From positions 434,001-498,000 of the forward strand of contig NZ_CP100404.1 of the NCBI RefSeq assembly GCF_024218775.1: a stretch of DNA of 64,000 bases, in the 5' to 3' direction. The first letter of the stretch is position 1. Every line of letters starts with the position of its first letter. Below, piece by piece: positions 18,874 through 33,611 of this stretch. A program made the translations under genes and the position numbers. Below the pieces are notes generated by a model. The model saw nothing but the letters and a program-made list of their open reading frames with translations. It was not told the DNA's origin and searched no databases. Source of the DNA: Haloarcula marina (lineage in GTDB: Archaea > Halobacteriota > Halobacteria > Halobacteriales > Haloarculaceae).

Positions 18874-20397
18874 ATGCGACGCCAGTTCGCCGCCCTGTGC
18901 TGTGCCGTGGTCCTCCTCGTCCTCCTCGCCGGGTGTCAGGGGTTCGGTGTCGGGAGCGACGGCGACGGGACGGCGACGGCGTCGCCGACGCCCGAAGCGG
19001 ACTACGTCTTCACGCTCGACGGCGAAGGAAGCGACGACACGGCCGCCCCGACGGCGACGCCGCCCGCGGACGGCGCGCGGCCGGACCCCGAGAACGACAC
19101 CATCGGCTGGGAGAACGGGTACTGGCACGACGAGACGCTGTCGGTGACCACCGACGACGGCCTCAACGAGAGCGAACGGGCCGCCGTCGTCGCTCGGTCG
19201 ATGGCCCGCGTCGAGTTCGTCCGGCAACTGGAGTTCGAGCGGTCCGTGCCCGTCGACACCGTCTCGCGGGCGGCATACCGCGCGAACAACACGTACGAGA
19301 CGGGCGAGACGCTCCGGCGGTTCGACAACGCGAAGTTCGAGGCGCTGTTCCTCGTCGGCGAAGACCGGGACTCAGTGGCCACCCAGCAGGGGACCCTCGG
19401 GTCCAGCGTGCTGGGGTACTACAGTTCCCGGCGGGACGCCATCGTCCTCGTCACCGACTCGGAGACGCCGACCATCGACGAGGCGACCCTGGGACACGAA
19501 CTCGTCCACGCCTTACAGGACCAGCACTTCGGCTTCGACGGGAGCGCCCGGACCCGCGACGCCGTCCAAGGCCGCAACGGTCTCGTCGAGGGCGACGCCG
19601 CCGCGACGGAGGACCGCTACGTGGCCCGCTGTGGCGAGCAGTGGGACTGCCTCTCTGGCGGGGCCGGGGGCGGCGGTGGCGGCGGTGACCGGCACTTCGG
19701 CATCTCCTTTCTGGTGTACTTCCCGTACAGCGACGGTCCCGGACTGGTCGAGAACTTACACGACCGCGGCGGGTGGGCGAGAGTGAACGAGGCCTACGAC
19801 GAGACGCCGGAGGGCGCGCGCGAGGTGATGCGGCCCGAAGACTACCCCGCGTGGGAACCGCGGAACGTGACGCTCTCGGACCGCTCGACGGACGAGTGGG
19901 AGCGCGTGCGGCCCTCCACCGACCGCGACCGGCCGGACTACGCGGTGGTCGGCCCGTCGGCCATCGCGGCGTCGATGGCGTACACGCTGGCCGACGGCTA
20001 CAACGAGTCGGCTGTCGTCAGTCGGCGGGCGGTGTTCAACTACGCCGCTTCGGGCGGCCTCGACAGCACCGACCCGTACAACTACGCGCTCCCGGCGACG
20101 ACGGAGTGGGAGGGCGGGCGGATGTACGCCTACACGCGGGCGAACGCGACGAACACGACCGAGACGGCCTACGTCTGGAGGACCGTCTGGAGCGACGAGG
20201 CCGCCGCGGCGACGTTCGCGACGACGTGGGAGGCCGTCATCGCCCACTGGGGCGGGACCGAGACGGCCGACGGCAACTGGGTCATCGAGTCGGCGAGCCC
20301 CTTCGCCGACGCCGTCTCGGTCCGTGTCGACGGCGACACGGTCACCGTGGTGAACGCGCCGACGGAAGCCGACCTGCACGAGGTACACGATGCGTAA
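18874..20397 (+). CDS. Secreted HExxH lipoprotein (Hvo_1808-type surface protein), copy 1
   Basis: Protein of 507 residues. A Sec-type lipoprotein signal ends in LLAGC, so it is probably lipid-anchored outside the cell. A Thr/Asp-rich linker follows. The core has GHELVHALQDQHFG with H208, E209 and H212, a zincin HExxH motif, and E239 in GLVEGDAAATE as probable third zinc ligand. A Gly-rich run (about residues 265-275) follows CGEQWDCLSG. It is the first of two tandem paralogues that overlap by 8 bp, and the C-terminal module of the 29099-32704 protein is a third copy. I infer a zinc-dependent surface protease; activity is untested. Confidence 0.82.
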   Translation: MRRQFAALCCAVVLLVLLAGCQGFGVGSDGDGTATASPTPEADYVFTLDGEGSDDTAAPTATPPADGARPDPENDTIGWENGYWHDETLSVTTDDGLNESERAAVVARSMARVEFVRQLEFERSVPVDTVSRAAYRANNTYETGETLRRFDNAKFEALFLVGEDRDSVATQQGTLGSSVLGYYSSRRDAIVLVTDSETPTIDEATLGHELVHALQDQHFGFDGSARTRDAVQGRNGLVEGDAAATEDRYVARCGEQWDCLSGGAGGGGGGGDRHFGISFLVYFPYSDGPGLVENLHDRGGWARVNEAYDETPEGAREVMRPEDYPAWEPRNVTLSDRSTDEWERVRPSTDRDRPDYAVVGPSAIAASMAYTLADGYNESAVVSRRAVFNYAASGGLDSTDPYNYALPATTEWEGGRMYAYTRANATNTTETAYVWRTVWSDEAAAATFATTWEAVIAHWGGTETADGNWVIESASPFADAVSVRVDGDTVTVVNAPTEADLHEVHDA

Positions 20398-21718
20398 GGA
20401 ACTACTACTCGCACTGACTGTCCTGCTGGCCGGGTGTTCCGTCCCCGTCTTCGGCGGCCCGGACCATCCGGCGGAACCGAGCGGCGAAGACACCATCGGC
20501 TGGGAGAACGGCTACTGGTACGACGACCCCGTCTCCGTGACCACCGACGACGGCCTCAACGAGAGCGAGCGCGAGGCCGTCACCGCTCGGACGATGGCCC
20601 GCGTCGAGCAGATACGCGACCGGGAGTTCACCGAGACGGTTCCCGTCGAAGTCATCTCCCGGGCGGAGTACCGGAACCGCTCGCGGGGCAACGGCGGTTC
20701 CGGCGGGCCGCCCGCTGACCCGTGGAACGACCAGGTGTGGGAGTCGCTGCTGCTCATCGGCGAGGACGAGGGCAGTAGCGAGGCCATTCAGGGCACGCTC
20801 TCGACCTCCGTACAAGGCTTCTACTCGCCGAGTCGGGACCGCATCGTCGTCGTCAGCCCCACCGAGACGCCGCAGGTCGACCGGACGACGCTGGCCCACG
20901 AACTCGTCCACGCCCTGCAGGACCAGCAGTTCGGGCTGACCGGGTCCCCGGAGACCCAGGACCGGCAACTCAGCCGTGACGGTGTCGTCGAGGGCGAGGC
21001 CAACTACGTCCAGGCGCTGTATCAGCGCCGCTGTGACGGCCAGTGGGACTGCATCGAGCGCCCCGACCGGAGCGGTGGCGGCGGTGGCGGCGGCAGCAGC
21101 CTCAACCCCGGTCTGTTCACCGTCATCATCCAGCCCTACGCCACCGGCCCCGCGTTCGTCGACAGCGTCTACGGCGAGGGCGGGTGGGACGCCGTCGACG
21201 CCCTCCACGAGAACGTGCCCGACAGCACCGAACAGGTCATCCACCCCGACCGGTACCCCGACGAGAAGCCCGAAAACGTCAGCGTACCCGACCGGTCGAA
21301 CGAGGAGTGGAACCGCTTCGACCACGACCCGGTGGCGGACACCGTCGGCGAAGCGTCCATCTTCGCCACGATGTACCACAACAACCAGACCGACGCCGGG
21401 CGGTACTCCTACCAGAGCGAACCCTCGGAAGGGTGGGCCGGTGACAGCGTCGTCCCCTACCAGAACGAGTCCGGTGGCGGCGGCTACGTCTGGGTGAGCA
21501 CGTGGGACAGCGAGGAAGACGCTCGGGAGTTCGCCCGCGCGTATCGCGCGGCACTCGTCGAGGAACACGGCGCGACCCAACCGCGGGCGAACGTCTACGT
21601 GGTCCCCGAGGAGAGTCCGTTCGCCGACGCCTTCCGAATCACGCGGTCCGGTGACACCGTCCGCATCGTCAACGGGCCGACCGTCGACGACCTCTCGGCC
21701 ATCCACCGGCCCCGCTGA
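20390..21718 (+). CDS. Secreted HExxH lipoprotein (Hvo_1808-type surface protein), copy 2
   Basis: Protein of 442 residues with a short lipoprotein signal ending LLAGCSVPVFGG. It lacks the long Thr-rich linker of copy 1. The shared features follow: DTIGWENGYWYDD, DGLNESEREAV, AHELVHALQDQQFGL (zinc HExxH), GVVEGEANYVQAL (third ligand Glu), a CDGQWDC pair of cysteines, then a Gly-rich run. The conserved ENGYW and WGHxGG-type segments recur in all three copies. Its start lies inside the last codons of copy 1 (8-bp overlap), so they form one transcript from a tandem duplication. Confidence 0.82.
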   Translation: MRKELLLALTVLLAGCSVPVFGGPDHPAEPSGEDTIGWENGYWYDDPVSVTTDDGLNESEREAVTARTMARVEQIRDREFTETVPVEVISRAEYRNRSRGNGGSGGPPADPWNDQVWESLLLIGEDEGSSEAIQGTLSTSVQGFYSPSRDRIVVVSPTETPQVDRTTLAHELVHALQDQQFGLTGSPETQDRQLSRDGVVEGEANYVQALYQRRCDGQWDCIERPDRSGGGGGGGSSLNPGLFTVIIQPYATGPAFVDSVYGEGGWDAVDALHENVPDSTEQVIHPDRYPDEKPENVSVPDRSNEEWNRFDHDPVADTVGEASIFATMYHNNQTDAGRYSYQSEPSEGWAGDSVVPYQNESGGGGYVWVSTWDSEEDAREFARAYRAALVEEHGATQPRANVYVVPEESPFADAFRITRSGDTVRIVNGPTVDDLSAIHRPR

Positions 21719-27498: not shown

Positions 27499-28635
27499 TC
27501 AGAACGGCCCCGACGTACCCACTAGCCGCCGCATCTCCATCGCCGAGGCGAAGTCCTCGCGGGAGACGACGTGGACGCCGTCGGGACTCTCGACGAGGGC
27601 GGCGCTCGCCTTGGAGGTGTCAAGTTCGACCAGCGCGTCGAACGCCGACTGGTCGGCCTGCAGACGGGGCAGGTCCGTCTCCATCAGGTCGGCGACGGTG
27701 TCGGCCTCGCGCTCGGCCTTCGACAGCGCCTTGAAGTCCGAGACGGTGACGACGCCGATTGTCTCGCCACCCCGGGTGACGGTGAACTCCGGCGAGCGGT
27801 CGGCGAACATCCGGTCGACCAGTTCCTCGACGGACGCGTCGGCCTCGATGGAGAGTCGCGTCGGCCGAGCGATGTCGCCGACGGTCAGGCCCTCTAGGAG
27901 GTCGGCGAGCGCCACCGTCCGGGACTCTCCGCTGGCCGCGGCGTAGATGAACAGCGCCAGCAACAGTAGAATCGGGCTGAACGAGAGCACGCCGAAGACC
28001 GCAAAGAGGACGGCGAAGGCCGTCCCGATGCGGGCCGCGATTCGGGTCGCTGACGCGTACGGGCGAGAGCGGGCGAGGAGCGCCCGCAACACGCGCCCGC
28101 CGTCCATCGGGAACGCCGGGAGCATGTTGAACACCGCCAGCACGATGTTCGTCACCGCCAGCCACCCGACGACGAACAGCGTCACGTCCGCGGTCGCGGG
28201 GAGTGCCAGCACGCCAGCGTAACAGACCGCGCCGACGGCGATGCTCGTCAGCGGTCCCGCCACGGCGATCCAGAACTCGCGGTTCCACTCGCGGGGCATC
28301 TGCTTGAAACTCGCCAGCCCACCGAGAATCCACAGCGTGATGGACTCGACTTCGAGGTCGTAGCGCATCGCCGCCCACGCGTGGCCGAGTTCGTGGAGCG
28401 TGACGCTGACGAACAGGCCGACGGCCGCCGTCCCGCCGATGAGCCACGGCGTCACCCCCACGGTCAGACGGTCCACGTCGAGGGGCGTTCCGGCGAGTCT
28501 GCCGACGATACCCGCGTACAGTTCTATCTGTGACCCGCTCCCGATGAGCCACGCCAGCACTGGGAGAAAGACGACCAGCGAGATGTTCACCCGGATGGGG
28601 ATGCCCCAAACCGTCGTGATGTGGTAATTCCGCAC
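27499..28635 (-). CDS. Site-2 protease (M50) with two CBS domains
   Basis: Protein of 378 residues. Zinc motif HELGH is at residues 81-85 in a membrane helix, and the second motif is NMLPAFPMDGGR with the Asp ligand. About five spans occupy the first 220 residues. Two CBS domains fill about residues 240-370, which usually sense adenine nucleotides. Family members cleave membrane-embedded regulators. The same-strand small membrane gene lies 39 bp upstream. Confidence 0.92.
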   Translation of the reverse strand: MRNYHITTVWGIPIRVNISLVVFLPVLAWLIGSGSQIELYAGIVGRLAGTPLDVDRLTVGVTPWLIGGTAAVGLFVSVTLHELGHAWAAMRYDLEVESITLWILGGLASFKQMPREWNREFWIAVAGPLTSIAVGAVCYAGVLALPATADVTLFVVGWLAVTNIVLAVFNMLPAFPMDGGRVLRALLARSRPYASATRIAARIGTAFAVLFAVFGVLSFSPILLLLALFIYAAASGESRTVALADLLEGLTVGDIARPTRLSIEADASVEELVDRMFADRSPEFTVTRGGETIGVVTVSDFKALSKAEREADTVADLMETDLPRLQADQSAFDALVELDTSKASAALVESPDGVHVVSREDFASAMEMRRLVGTSGPF

Positions 28636-28674: not shown

Positions 28675-29028
28675 TCAGACCCCCGGGACGCCGACTACCT
28701 CGACGCCTAACCCGACGAAACTGAGTACCGCGAGGACGAGCAGCGAGGCGAGCCACGCGACGAGGCCGATACCGGCGGCCTTCAGCCACCCGCCGGGGTA
28801 CTGGAGGTTGATGACGCCGACGTAGACGACCAGTACGATGAGCGGACCGACGAGCGGAAGCCACCCCAGAAACAGCGAGGTGAGCGCCCACGCGACCGAC
28901 GCGATGGCCGCCGTGACGAGCGCCTTTTGGTAGGTGCTTTTGCCGACGACGACCGTCGCGGCGAGGTGTATCGCCAGCGCGCCGACGAGCAGTCCGACCA
29001 CGAACGAGAGTATCGTGTCCAGAACCAT
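28675..29028 (-). CDS. Small membrane protein with three to four spans
   Basis: Protein of 117 residues, nearly all hydrophobic, with segments at about 5-25, 36-53, 57-75 and 84-106. The charged loop VVGKSTYQKAL follows the first span. I do not recognise the family. It is upstream of the site-2 protease gene on the same strand and could be co-transcribed or a partner in the membrane; that is only a guess from position. Confidence 0.7.
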   Translation of the reverse strand: MVLDTILSFVVGLLVGALAIHLAATVVVGKSTYQKALVTAAIASVAWALTSLFLGWLPLVGPLIVLVVYVGVINLQYPGGWLKAAGIGLVAWLASLLVLAVLSFVGLGVEVVGVPGV

Positions 29029-29098: not shown

Positions 29099-32000
29099 TC
29101 ACGAGTCGCCCTCGCTCTCGTTGCCGAGCGACGGGCGGAGGGTCGAAAGCGAATCGACGCTCGGACCGTTGACGACGGTGACCGTCTGCCCGTCGCGGAC
29201 GACGCGGAACGCGTCGGCGTACGCTTCGCCCTCCGGAATCCGCCACGTCGACTCGCCGACGGACTCGCCGCCGTGGCCGCGAAGCACCTGCACGTAGGCG
29301 TCACGGAACTGCTGTGCGTCCGCTTCGCTGTCCCACTGTGTGGTCCAGACGTAGCCGTTCGCGCTCCCGTTCGTGTACAGCGAGAGGCGGTCGTTGCCCC
29401 AGCCCTCGGTGGGGACGCTGGTGTAGTTGTAGGTGTCGTACGGCCCGCCGTCCGTCGCGAGGACCTGGTCGCTGTCGACGACGGGGATGTCGTACTCGCG
29501 GTCCTGGTACCAGAACATCGCGTACAGCCACGCCTCGCCGATGGTCTCGGTGTCGAACTGTCGCCACTCCCCGTCGGGGGCGGTCTCCGCGTCGAGTTCC
29601 TGCGGGCGCTCGTCTGGGTAGCGCTCGGGGTGAATGGTCTGTTCGGTGGCGACCGGCGGAGCGTCGTAGGCGGCGTCGACGGCGTCCCACCCGCCGCGCT
29701 CTCGGAGTCGGTCGACGAACACCGGCCCGTCGGAGTACGGTTGGATGCTCCTGAGGTAGACGCCGAGGTTGACATCAGCACCGCTCGCGCTCGTATTCGA
29801 CGGCCGGGTCGCCACGCACCGCCACGTCCCGTTCTGACAGCGGGCCTCGTAGCGGTCCATCACGTAGTTGGCGTCCCCCTCGATGAGGCCGAGGGCGGCG
29901 GTGCGTTCGTCGGCGGTCGGCAGGCCGCCACTGGCGGTGAACACCCCGTCCAACAGCCCAACTTGGTCCTGAAGGGCGTGGGTCAGTTCGTGGACGAGGA
30001 CCCCCTCGTCGATTCGGGGCCGGTCGGGGTCCTCGACGACGAGGACGAACCGGTCCTGTCCGATGGCGTAGAACCCGCCGACGGTAGCGCCGTCCTCGCC
30101 GACCACCACGTCGTAGGCGTCGGTTTCCTCGTCGACCATGAACGTGGCCTCGTACACCTGATTGTAGTACCGTGAGCCGACGAGGCGGTCGAACCTGCTC
30201 TGATTGCTGGCGTACTCCTCGCGGGCGACGACGTCGAATTCCACGTCCCGCTGGAACTCCCGGTCGCGGATGGCCTCGACGCGGGCCATCCCGCGGGCGA
30301 CGAGCGCCGCTCGCTCGCTCTCGTTGAGGCCGTCACTGACGGTCAGGTCGACGGACTCGTTGGCCCAGTAGCCGTTCTCCCAACCCAGTCGGTCGGTTTC
30401 TGGGTCTGCCAGTTGCGGCCCGACTGCCGATTGGGTGCCGTTTCCGGCCCCGCTCGTCTCGATGGTCAACTCGTAGGGGCCTGTCGCCCCCCGGTAGCCG
30501 GTGACCACGAGCGAGTACGTCCCCGCCGCGGGAGCGACGTACGTGACGCTCTCACCGTCGGTCACCGACGTGCTCGACCGTACCACCGACCCGTCCGGGT
30601 CGACGAGAAAAAAATCGAGGTCTCCCTGTGCATGCGAAAAACCGATGCTGGCCGACAGCGACTCGCCCGCCGCCAGTTCGACGGTGTAGACGTCGAGGTC
30701 GTTCTCGCTTATCTCCAGTCCCTCGTAGGTTCCCGGGTCAAGCGCTGTCGCGTTCGAAAAATCGTTGTTGGGTTCGAACCGGTCGGTGGCCGGTGACTGT
30801 GCCGAACCGCTCGTTTCGATGGTCATCTCGTACGGTCCCGTCGCGCCCTGGAAGCCGACGACGACGAGATAGTAGGTGCCGCTCTCCGTGGCGACGTAGG
30901 AGACGCTCTCCCCGTCCGTCACCGACGTACTCGACTGTCGCTCGGCCCCGTCCGGACCGAGCAAGAACAGGTCGAGGTCGCCGACCGAGTGTGAGAAGTC
31001 GATTTCGGCCGCGAGCGACTCGCCGGACTCCAATTCGACCGCGTACACGTCGAGGTCGTTCTTGGTGATGTTCAACCCAGTGTACGTCCCCGTCTCGACG
31101 GGCGTGGCGCTCCCGAAGTCGTTGTTCGGTTCGAGTTCGCCGACGGTCACCGGAGGCTCGGTCCCTGCGGTGCTGATGGTGAGGTCGTACGGCCCCGTGC
31201 CGTTCAGGAACCCGGTGACGACGACGTAGTAGGTCCCCGTCTCACCGGCGACGTAGGAGACGGACTCGTTGTCCGTCTCGGACGTGCTGGACCCGACTAC
31301 TGACCCGTTCGCCCCGAGCAAGAAGAGGTCCAAGTCGCCCTCCTCGTGCGAGAAGTTGATGCTCGCCGAGACGGACTCGCCCGCAGTGAGACCGACCGCG
31401 TAGGCGTCGAGGTCGTCTTCGGTGATGCTTAGGTCTTCGTAGGTCCCCGGTTGGAGTCGCGTGGCGTTGCGCACGTCGTCGTTCGGTTCGAACCGGTCGG
31501 GGGTGGTGGCCGGTTCCTCGCCGCCCGAAACGGCGACAGAGAGGTTGTACGGACCAGTCGCGCCTTGGTAGCCGGCGACCGCTAGGTAGTACGTCCCGGA
31601 CTCGGTCGCGACCGTCGAGACGGATTCGTTGTCCGTCGAGGAGACGCTGGCCTGTCGGACCGACTGCTCGGGACCGAGCAGGAACAGTTCGAGGTCGCCG
31701 ACCGAGTGCGAGAACTCGATTTCGGCCGAGAGGGACTCGCCCGCTTCGAGTTCGACGGCGTAGATGTCCACGTCGTCCTCGGTAATCTCCAGTCCGTCGT
31801 ACGTGCCGGGGTCTATCGCCGTCGCGTTGGCGAAGTCGTCGTTCGGTTCGAACTCGCCCTCGGCGGTCGGCGGTCCCGTGCCGGTGGTGTCGAGCGTCAG
31901 CGAGTAGTCGTTGGTCGCGTTCTGGAACCCGGTGACGACGACGTAGTAGGTTCCCGTCTCACCGGCGACGTAGGAGACGTTCTCACCGTCCGTCTCCGAC

Positions 32001-32704
32001 GTACTGGACTGCCGGACCGTCCCGTTCGCCCCGAGCAAGAAGAGGTCCAAGTCGCCCTCCTCGTGCGAGAAATTGATGCTCGCGGAGAGGGATTCGCCCG
32101 CGGTGAGGCCGACGGCGTACACGTCGATGTCGCCCGCCGTGACGTTCAGGTCGTCGTAGGTCCCCGGTTGGAGTCGCGTGGCGTTGCGCACGTCGTCGTT
32201 CGGTTCGAAGCGGTCCGGTCCGGCGGCCCCGTCGGGTGCGGTCCCGCCCGTCGTGACGACGTTCAGGTCGTAGGGGCCGGTCGCCCCTTGGAAGCCGAAG
32301 ACCACCAGATAGTACGTCCCCGACTCGCCCGCGACGGTCGAGACGGACTCGTTGTCCGTCGCGGAGACGCTGGCCTGCTGGACTGTCTGGTCCGGCCCGT
32401 AGAGGTGGAGTTCGAGGTCGCCGACCGAGTGCGAGAAGCCGATTTCGGCCGACAGTGACTCGCCCTGTTCGAGTTCGACGGCGTAGATGTCCACGTCGTC
32501 GTCACTGATGTTCAGCCCCGAGTAGGTTCCGGGCGCTATCGCCGTCGCGTTGGCGAAGTCGTCGTTCGGTTCGAAGTCGGCCTCCGCCGACCCGGTCTGT
32601 GCGGCGCTGGTGCCCACCATCGCCGTCGTCGCGGCGAGGCAGACCACGGCGGTCAGCAGTACCGCCGAAAGCGCTCGTGTCCGTATCGTTGGTCGTGATG
32701 ACAT
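29099..32704 (-). CDS. Exported multidomain protein: six PPC domains plus an HExxH protease-like module
   Basis: Protein of 1201 residues. A Sec signal peptide ends near TSAAQ (about residue 38). Six PPC domains follow, each opening FEPNDDF or a close variant and ending in a GxYxLxV strand, at about residues 40-755. They alternate in type, A-B-A-B-A-B, pointing to duplication of a two-domain unit. From about 765 to the end is the same module as the lipoproteins at 18874 and 20390, with VHELTHALQDQV (HExxH near residue 904) and GLIEGDANYV. PPC domains bind secreted proteases or surface glycans. No S-layer anchor or C-terminal span is visible. I infer a released or cell-associated zinc protease. 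The start was set at 32704, since signal-peptide features begin there. Confidence 0.85.
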   Translation of the reverse strand: MSSRPTIRTRALSAVLLTAVVCLAATTAMVGTSAAQTGSAEADFEPNDDFANATAIAPGTYSGLNISDDDVDIYAVELEQGESLSAEIGFSHSVGDLELHLYGPDQTVQQASVSATDNESVSTVAGESGTYYLVVFGFQGATGPYDLNVVTTGGTAPDGAAGPDRFEPNDDVRNATRLQPGTYDDLNVTAGDIDVYAVGLTAGESLSASINFSHEEGDLDLFLLGANGTVRQSSTSETDGENVSYVAGETGTYYVVVTGFQNATNDYSLTLDTTGTGPPTAEGEFEPNDDFANATAIDPGTYDGLEITEDDVDIYAVELEAGESLSAEIEFSHSVGDLELFLLGPEQSVRQASVSSTDNESVSTVATESGTYYLAVAGYQGATGPYNLSVAVSGGEEPATTPDRFEPNDDVRNATRLQPGTYEDLSITEDDLDAYAVGLTAGESVSASINFSHEEGDLDLFLLGANGSVVGSSTSETDNESVSYVAGETGTYYVVVTGFLNGTGPYDLTISTAGTEPPVTVGELEPNNDFGSATPVETGTYTGLNITKNDLDVYAVELESGESLAAEIDFSHSVGDLDLFLLGPDGAERQSSTSVTDGESVSYVATESGTYYLVVVGFQGATGPYEMTIETSGSAQSPATDRFEPNNDFSNATALDPGTYEGLEISENDLDVYTVELAAGESLSASIGFSHAQGDLDFFLVDPDGSVVRSSTSVTDGESVTYVAPAAGTYSLVVTGYRGATGPYELTIETSGAGNGTQSAVGPQLADPETDRLGWENGYWANESVDLTVSDGLNESERAALVARGMARVEAIRDREFQRDVEFDVVAREEYASNQSRFDRLVGSRYYNQVYEATFMVDEETDAYDVVVGEDGATVGGFYAIGQDRFVLVVEDPDRPRIDEGVLVHELTHALQDQVGLLDGVFTASGGLPTADERTAALGLIEGDANYVMDRYEARCQNGTWRCVATRPSNTSASGADVNLGVYLRSIQPYSDGPVFVDRLRERGGWDAVDAAYDAPPVATEQTIHPERYPDERPQELDAETAPDGEWRQFDTETIGEAWLYAMFWYQDREYDIPVVDSDQVLATDGGPYDTYNYTSVPTEGWGNDRLSLYTNGSANGYVWTTQWDSEADAQQFRDAYVQVLRGHGGESVGESTWRIPEGEAYADAFRVVRDGQTVTVVNGPSVDSLSTLRPSLGNESEGDS

Positions 32705-32801: not shown

Positions 32802-32969
32802 CGGAGTAAGCGGAACCTCAGCCGGTGGGTCGGCGGCGAAAGCACCGACAACGCGCGGGTTGGATGGGAATACCGTTCGGTAAGCAACCGACGGGCAACA
32901 CGACTATCGGTGCCACCGCGTCCCGACCCGGACCACAAGAGTCAGAACGCCCTCGGTCCGACTCCGCGT

Positions 32970-33611
32970 ATGGTCGATTGGGACGTGTATCTGGTCACGG
33001 GGGAGTCGCTGTCGGCGGGTCGAACCACCCGCGAAGTCGTCGAGGCGGCCATCGCGGGCGGCGTCGGCGTCGTCCAGTTGCGCGAGAAGGACCGCTCGGC
33101 CCGCGAGCGCTACGAGATGGGGCGTCAAATCCGTGAGCTGACCCGCGAGGCGGGCGTCACGTTCGTCGTCAACGACCGGGTGGACATCGCCCAAGCGCTC
33201 GATGCCGACGGCGTCCATCTCGGCGACGACGACCTGCCCGTCCCGGTCGCCCGCGAACTGCTGGGTCCCGAGGCCGTCGTCGGGCGGTCGGTGTCGACGG
33301 TCGCGGAGGCCGAGGCGGCGGTGACCGCCGGTGCGGACTACCTCGGCGTCGGAACGGTCTATCGGACCGACTCGAAAGCCGACATCCCCGAAGACGACCA
33401 CGGCGTCGGTCCGGAACGAGTGGCCGCAATCACCGACGCCGTCGACGTGCCCGTCGTCGGTATCGGGGGTATCACCGCCGAGAACACCGCCGAGGTGGTC
33501 CGAGCGGGGGCCGACGGCGTGGCCGTCATCACTGCGATTACGCGGGCCGACGACCCCGAGGCGGCGACGGCGGCGCTTCGCGAGGCGGTCCGACGGGGCC
33601 GAGAGGCGTAG
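32970..33611 (+). CDS. thiE: Thiamine-phosphate synthase
   Basis: Protein of 213 residues, the size of bacterial ThiE. Motifs follow the TIM-barrel order: VQLREKDRSARER, VVNDRVDIAQALDADGVHLG, GADYLGVGTVYRTDSKADIP, and VPVVGIGGITAEN with the phosphate-binding glycines. It joins hydroxymethylpyrimidine diphosphate and thiazole phosphate. Haloarchaea often use a ThiDN fusion instead; here a separate ThiE sits about 30 kb from the ThiR/TenA locus. Convergent with the glutaredoxin-like gene, directly abutting it. Confidence 0.93.
   Translation: MVDWDVYLVTGESLSAGRTTREVVEAAIAGGVGVVQLREKDRSARERYEMGRQIRELTREAGVTFVVNDRVDIAQALDADGVHLGDDDLPVPVARELLGPEAVVGRSVSTVAEAEAAVTAGADYLGVGTVYRTDSKADIPEDDHGVGPERVAAITDAVDVPVVGIGGITAENTAEVVRAGADGVAVITAITRADDPEAATAALREAVRRGREA

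Follow-up and report, generated by a model that had tools for sequence, protein, structure and literature searches.

The window, i.e. the whole stretch of 64,000 nucleotides of Haloarcula marina DNA that was analyzed, contains on its minus strand a gene at 29099..32704 (ATG at 32704, stop at 29099) encoding a protein of 1201 residues. Combining the open reading frame with the Pfam and NCBIfam matches, the protein is composed of (i) a predicted Sec-type signal peptide of approximately residues 1-36 (32597..32704, minus strand; cleavage site judged by eye), (ii) an array of six PPC domains at residues 39-757 (30434..32590, minus strand), and (iii) a module of the Hvo_1808 family at residues 771-1189 (29138..30394, minus strand). 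The predicted signal peptide contains neither a lipobox nor a twin arginine, and the lipobox pattern is missing from all three PPC-bearing orthologues. The PPC array is defined by six stretches matching Pfam PF04151 (E=4.3e-40, 136.9 bits versus a cut-off of 25.9), by EPN[DN]D repeat motifs beginning at residues 45, 167, 286, 406, 525 and 644, and by the repeat identities. The module matches NCBIfam NF038145, named 'Hvo_1808 family surface protein', over profile positions 1-431 of 432 (E=7.9e-139, 463.6 bits versus a cut-off of 200) and belongs to this family over the full profile length. The sequence-only reading had described a protein of this length with six PPC domains followed by a C-terminal HExxH module, as is found here, and its proposal of an exported haloarchaeal surface family agrees with the NF038145 match and the predicted signal peptide.

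The single HExxH in the protein is HELTH at residues 905-909 (29978..29992, minus strand; alignment and pattern search), in which H905 and H909 are putative metal ligands and E906 a putative general base. Glu942 of an IEGDA motif (29879..29881, minus strand) is a putative third metal ligand, and Cys956 and Cys963 (29816..29839, minus strand) may form a disulfide. Within the array, repeat 1 is 77% identical to repeat 3 and repeat 2 is 80% identical to repeat 4 (80.3 and 81.8% at the DNA level), versus 56-64% for the other pairs, and we conclude that a two-repeat block was duplicated.

Genomic context and distribution of the PPC fusion

By synteny, the neighbors of the PPC gene are a downstream gene for a Peptidase_M50 protein with CBS domain (27499..28635, minus strand) and a divergently oriented thiE-like gene (TMP-TENI; 32910..33611, plus strand). 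The three PPC-bearing species share the order thiE, PPC gene and M50 gene, with a tandem pair of Hvo_1808 family genes at some distance beyond. The empty site is seen in three genomes (G298, G369, G393), in which thiE comes after M50, the matched stretches of the two genes lie 0-213 bases apart and the PPC gene is missing. In the window, a hydrophobic 117-aa open reading frame (28675-29028, minus strand) lies between the PPC gene and the M50 gene; it was not found at this place in the two species with PPC-gene orthologues, and relatives of it adjoin M50 in two further genomes (G368, G394).

The fusion is present in three of the 32 Haloarcula genomes (G000, G337 and G392), with six, two and two PPC domains, respectively; the six-repeat form was seen in the window only, and a scan of genome contigs showed that Haloarcula amylovorans LR21 carries the same two-PPC gene. 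Outside the genus, a non-exhaustive look at 20 stretches from the best PPC matches among 392 genomes of the order showed no PPC array in one frame with the module. When the longest open frames of further family members were examined, they gave no PPC match. The PPC plus HExxH architecture to which the sequence-only reading had drawn attention thus exists, but its spread is narrow. The novelty lies in the PPC-Hvo_1808 architecture; the module itself is already known.

In the family tree, the module of the PPC copy forms a long branch within clade A. The long branch and the restriction to three of 32 genomes could indicate a dispensable, decaying copy that arose by a chance fusion and has no function. 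We consider this very improbable, given that the frame is intact in three species, that the putative catalytic and cysteine residues are retained and that dN/dS of the module among these species is 0.22-0.43, i.e. well under 1. Judged by these ratios, the module is evolving under purifying selection in the three species. Two other species carry the intact architecture at this locus, which together with the dN/dS values excludes a chance open reading frame or an assembly accident. Elsewhere in the genus, a 3623-residue open frame (L080 1185-12053, G396) matches PPC 26 times and lacks the Hvo_1808 module.

The Hvo_1808 family and the tandem lipoprotein pair

A genome search identified three Hvo_1808 family members in total in the genome from which the window comes, and these span approximately 14 kb. 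Based on family search and tree, the two genes in addition to the PPC gene encode a 507-aa clade B protein (18874..20397, plus strand) and a 442-aa clade A protein (20390..21718, plus strand), both with a LAGC lipobox and a HELVH motif, and the two genes overlap by 8 bases. The clade B/clade A pair is found in nearly all genomes of the genus (n=32) and is an ancient duplication. The earlier count of three members in 14 kb was correct; as a sign of a family, it has to be read differently, because the three copies are a genus-wide tandem lipoprotein pair plus one accessory copy. Comparable pairs are present in other families of the order.

In a profile search, 391 of 392 haloarchaeal genomes score above the NF038145 cut-off, and plasmid-borne copies bear the same family annotation. 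No Pfam family covers the module, and it is not annotated as a peptidase. In the literature, we found no characterized family member and one experimental paper on HVO_1808. HVO_1808 of Haloferax volcanii is exported, processed and mostly cell-associated; the study concerned export, and protease activity goes unmentioned (PMC2945643). The description of the family as under-described is therefore apt with respect to annotation and experiments, and less so in that the family is already named and near-universal in the class. HVO_1808 and both tandem copies in the window have a LAGC lipobox and no PPC domain, whereas the PPC protein has six PPC domains and lacks the lipobox; its export is predicted from the signal peptide in its sequence. 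The PPC-fused form is a rare, apparently secreted version of a near-universal haloarchaeal surface protein.

The family has relatives beyond the haloarchaea. WP_341472089.1, a hypothetical protein of Candidatus Chlorohelix allophototropha (Chloroflexota), is homologous over residues 875-1194 of the window protein (28% identity, 2e-25) and retains HELTHALQDQ and IEGDA; unlike the window protein, it is bacterial, has a lipobox-like N-terminus and no PPC domain, and its NF038145 score of 131.9 is below the cut-off of 200. Remote haloarchaeal relatives under the same cut-off (L177, L180, L181-L184) retain HExxH and a downstream EG motif, and from these the Hvo_1808 family appears to belong to a wider superfamily that has no name yet. 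Viral contigs searched with two patterns yielded no family members.

Active-site residues and the QExxH branch

In an alignment of 140 modules, E906, H909, E942, C956 and C963 are invariant, while position 905 is His in 104, giving the HExxH plus downstream Glu seen in the window protein, and Gln in 36. The sequence-only reading had named lack of conservation of the HExxH segment across homologues as a refuting result, and this occurs in part: the first His is replaced in 36 of 140 modules, although E906, H909 and E942 are constant. All four residues, i.e. H905, E906, H909 and E942, are retained in the three PPC copies. Because the alignment is weighted towards the genus and the top-scoring family members, we added counts of DNA patterns: QELxH(A/G)LQ was found in 55 of the 392 genomes and 18 of 86 genera, and HELxH(A/G)LQ in 85 of 116 genomes. 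Among 20 further genomes (15 genera), chosen mostly because they lack the exact H pattern, QExxH was found in two genera (G050 and G079; G001) and the rest have HExxH with altered surroundings.

Gluzincin peptidases typically combine HExxH with a Glu further downstream, and the residues seen here suggest a metallopeptidase of this type. In sequence, the shared module looks like a zinc protease; the label 'protease' is one that we infer from these residues. The Pfam metallopeptidase families DUF6782, M78, M90 and BSP match the motif region weakly and mostly below threshold, and for the module of the window protein all four score under their own cut-offs. A sequence search of the PDB with the module profile gave matches at chance level only. 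Structure models of the 433-residue module and of its 262-residue core (10 sequences each) had a mean pLDDT of 43-44, which is too low to judge the fold, and the best PDB match of the low-confidence core model in Foldseek (E=1.0) is meaningless. Given that a metal site, but no substrate, can be predicted from the residue pattern, and that the literature found offers no characterized member, the module could alternatively be a metal-dependent hydrolase that uses the same site on a non-peptide substrate, e.g. an envelope glycan, lipid or ester. We regard this as distinctly unlikely, because the weak Pfam matches on the motif are all to peptidases or putative peptidases where a function is stated and because of the gluzincin signature itself.

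In the tree, the QExxH proteins are placed inside clade B, and a few HExxH proteins branch from among them. In three genomes (G001, G002, G018), the sole family member is a QExxH protein, and classical zinc catalysis can therefore not be required for every function of the family. The idea that the QExxH protein is the inactive partner of an active protease was dropped as a general rule, since some genomes carry a QExxH copy only. The main rival to a metallopeptidase is a zincin-like scaffold for binding or structure, in which case the PPC protein would be a secreted adhesin-like or envelope protein without proteolysis. An entire QExxH subclade that provides the only copy in some genomes, PPC-array proteins without the Hvo_1808 module in related genomes and the lack of a reported activity for HVO_1808 (PMC2945643) are all compatible with such a scaffold. 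Against it, the four putative catalytic residues are retained in the PPC copies despite the long branch, and even the QExxH proteins keep E906 and E942 without exception, which exceeds what a dead site would need. On balance, we deem the scaffold unlikely, while taking it seriously.

Function of the PPC-tailed protein

PPC-bearing bacterial metalloproteases such as E495 provide a parallel for the array. The PPC domains of E495 bind protein and raise the efficiency on protein substrates, and D26, D28, Y30 and Y/W65 are the binding residues (PMC3327674). E495, which belongs to the thermolysin family, and the window protein are alike in that PPC domains are joined to an HExxH module and in that D-x-D-x-Y is retained, in the window protein in all six repeats; in the latter, secretion is predicted. 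They differ in that E495 has one or two C-terminal PPC domains and a thermolysin-family catalytic domain, whereas in the window protein six PPC domains precede a module that is unrelated by sequence.

Because the PPC domains of E495 bind protein and all six repeats have D-x-D-x-Y, we lean, by a modest degree of belief, towards the window protein being an accessory, secreted, substrate-tethered metallopeptidase paralogue of the Hvo_1808 surface lipoproteins. In this model, (i) a clade A copy without lipid anchor would have been joined to an N-terminal PPC array, (ii) the joined gene would have settled between M50 and thiE in a few Haloarcula species, (iii) the protein would exit the cell by Sec, (iv) the array would bind protein or envelope substrates, and (v) the module would act as a gluzincin-type zinc metallopeptidase in which His905, His909 and Glu942 hold the metal and Glu906 is the general base. 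Secretion is suggested by a signal peptide without lipobox, unlike in the LAGC pair. The NF038145 score supports the family assignment, and the invariant E906, H909 and E942, the weak Pfam matches and the motifs of the Chloroflexota homologue point to a metallopeptidase; Gln905 in 36 of 140 modules, the genomes with QExxH only, the lack of a Pfam peptidase family above cut-off and the silence of the HVO_1808 study on protease activity count against one. More tentatively, and with somewhat less than even confidence, we suggest that Hvo_1808 proteins could be an unrecognized family of metallopeptidases, near-universal in haloarchaea and with relatives in bacteria, in which the lipid-anchored tandem pairs would act at the cell surface, the QExxH branch would have become non-classical or inactive, and the window gene would encode a released, substrate-tethered derivative.

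For a family that is present in practically all haloarchaea and known merely as 'surface protein', the HExxH...E signature provides a testable enzyme hypothesis. Purification and assays may be easiest with the PPC copy, which seems to lack a membrane anchor, and the naturally occurring QExxH proteins are ready-made material for comparison. Proteins of this branch (L016 1249-2817, L085 11474-13036, L157 and others) mostly have QELFHALQDQ...EGDGN, and an HExxH gene often lies in tandem with theirs.
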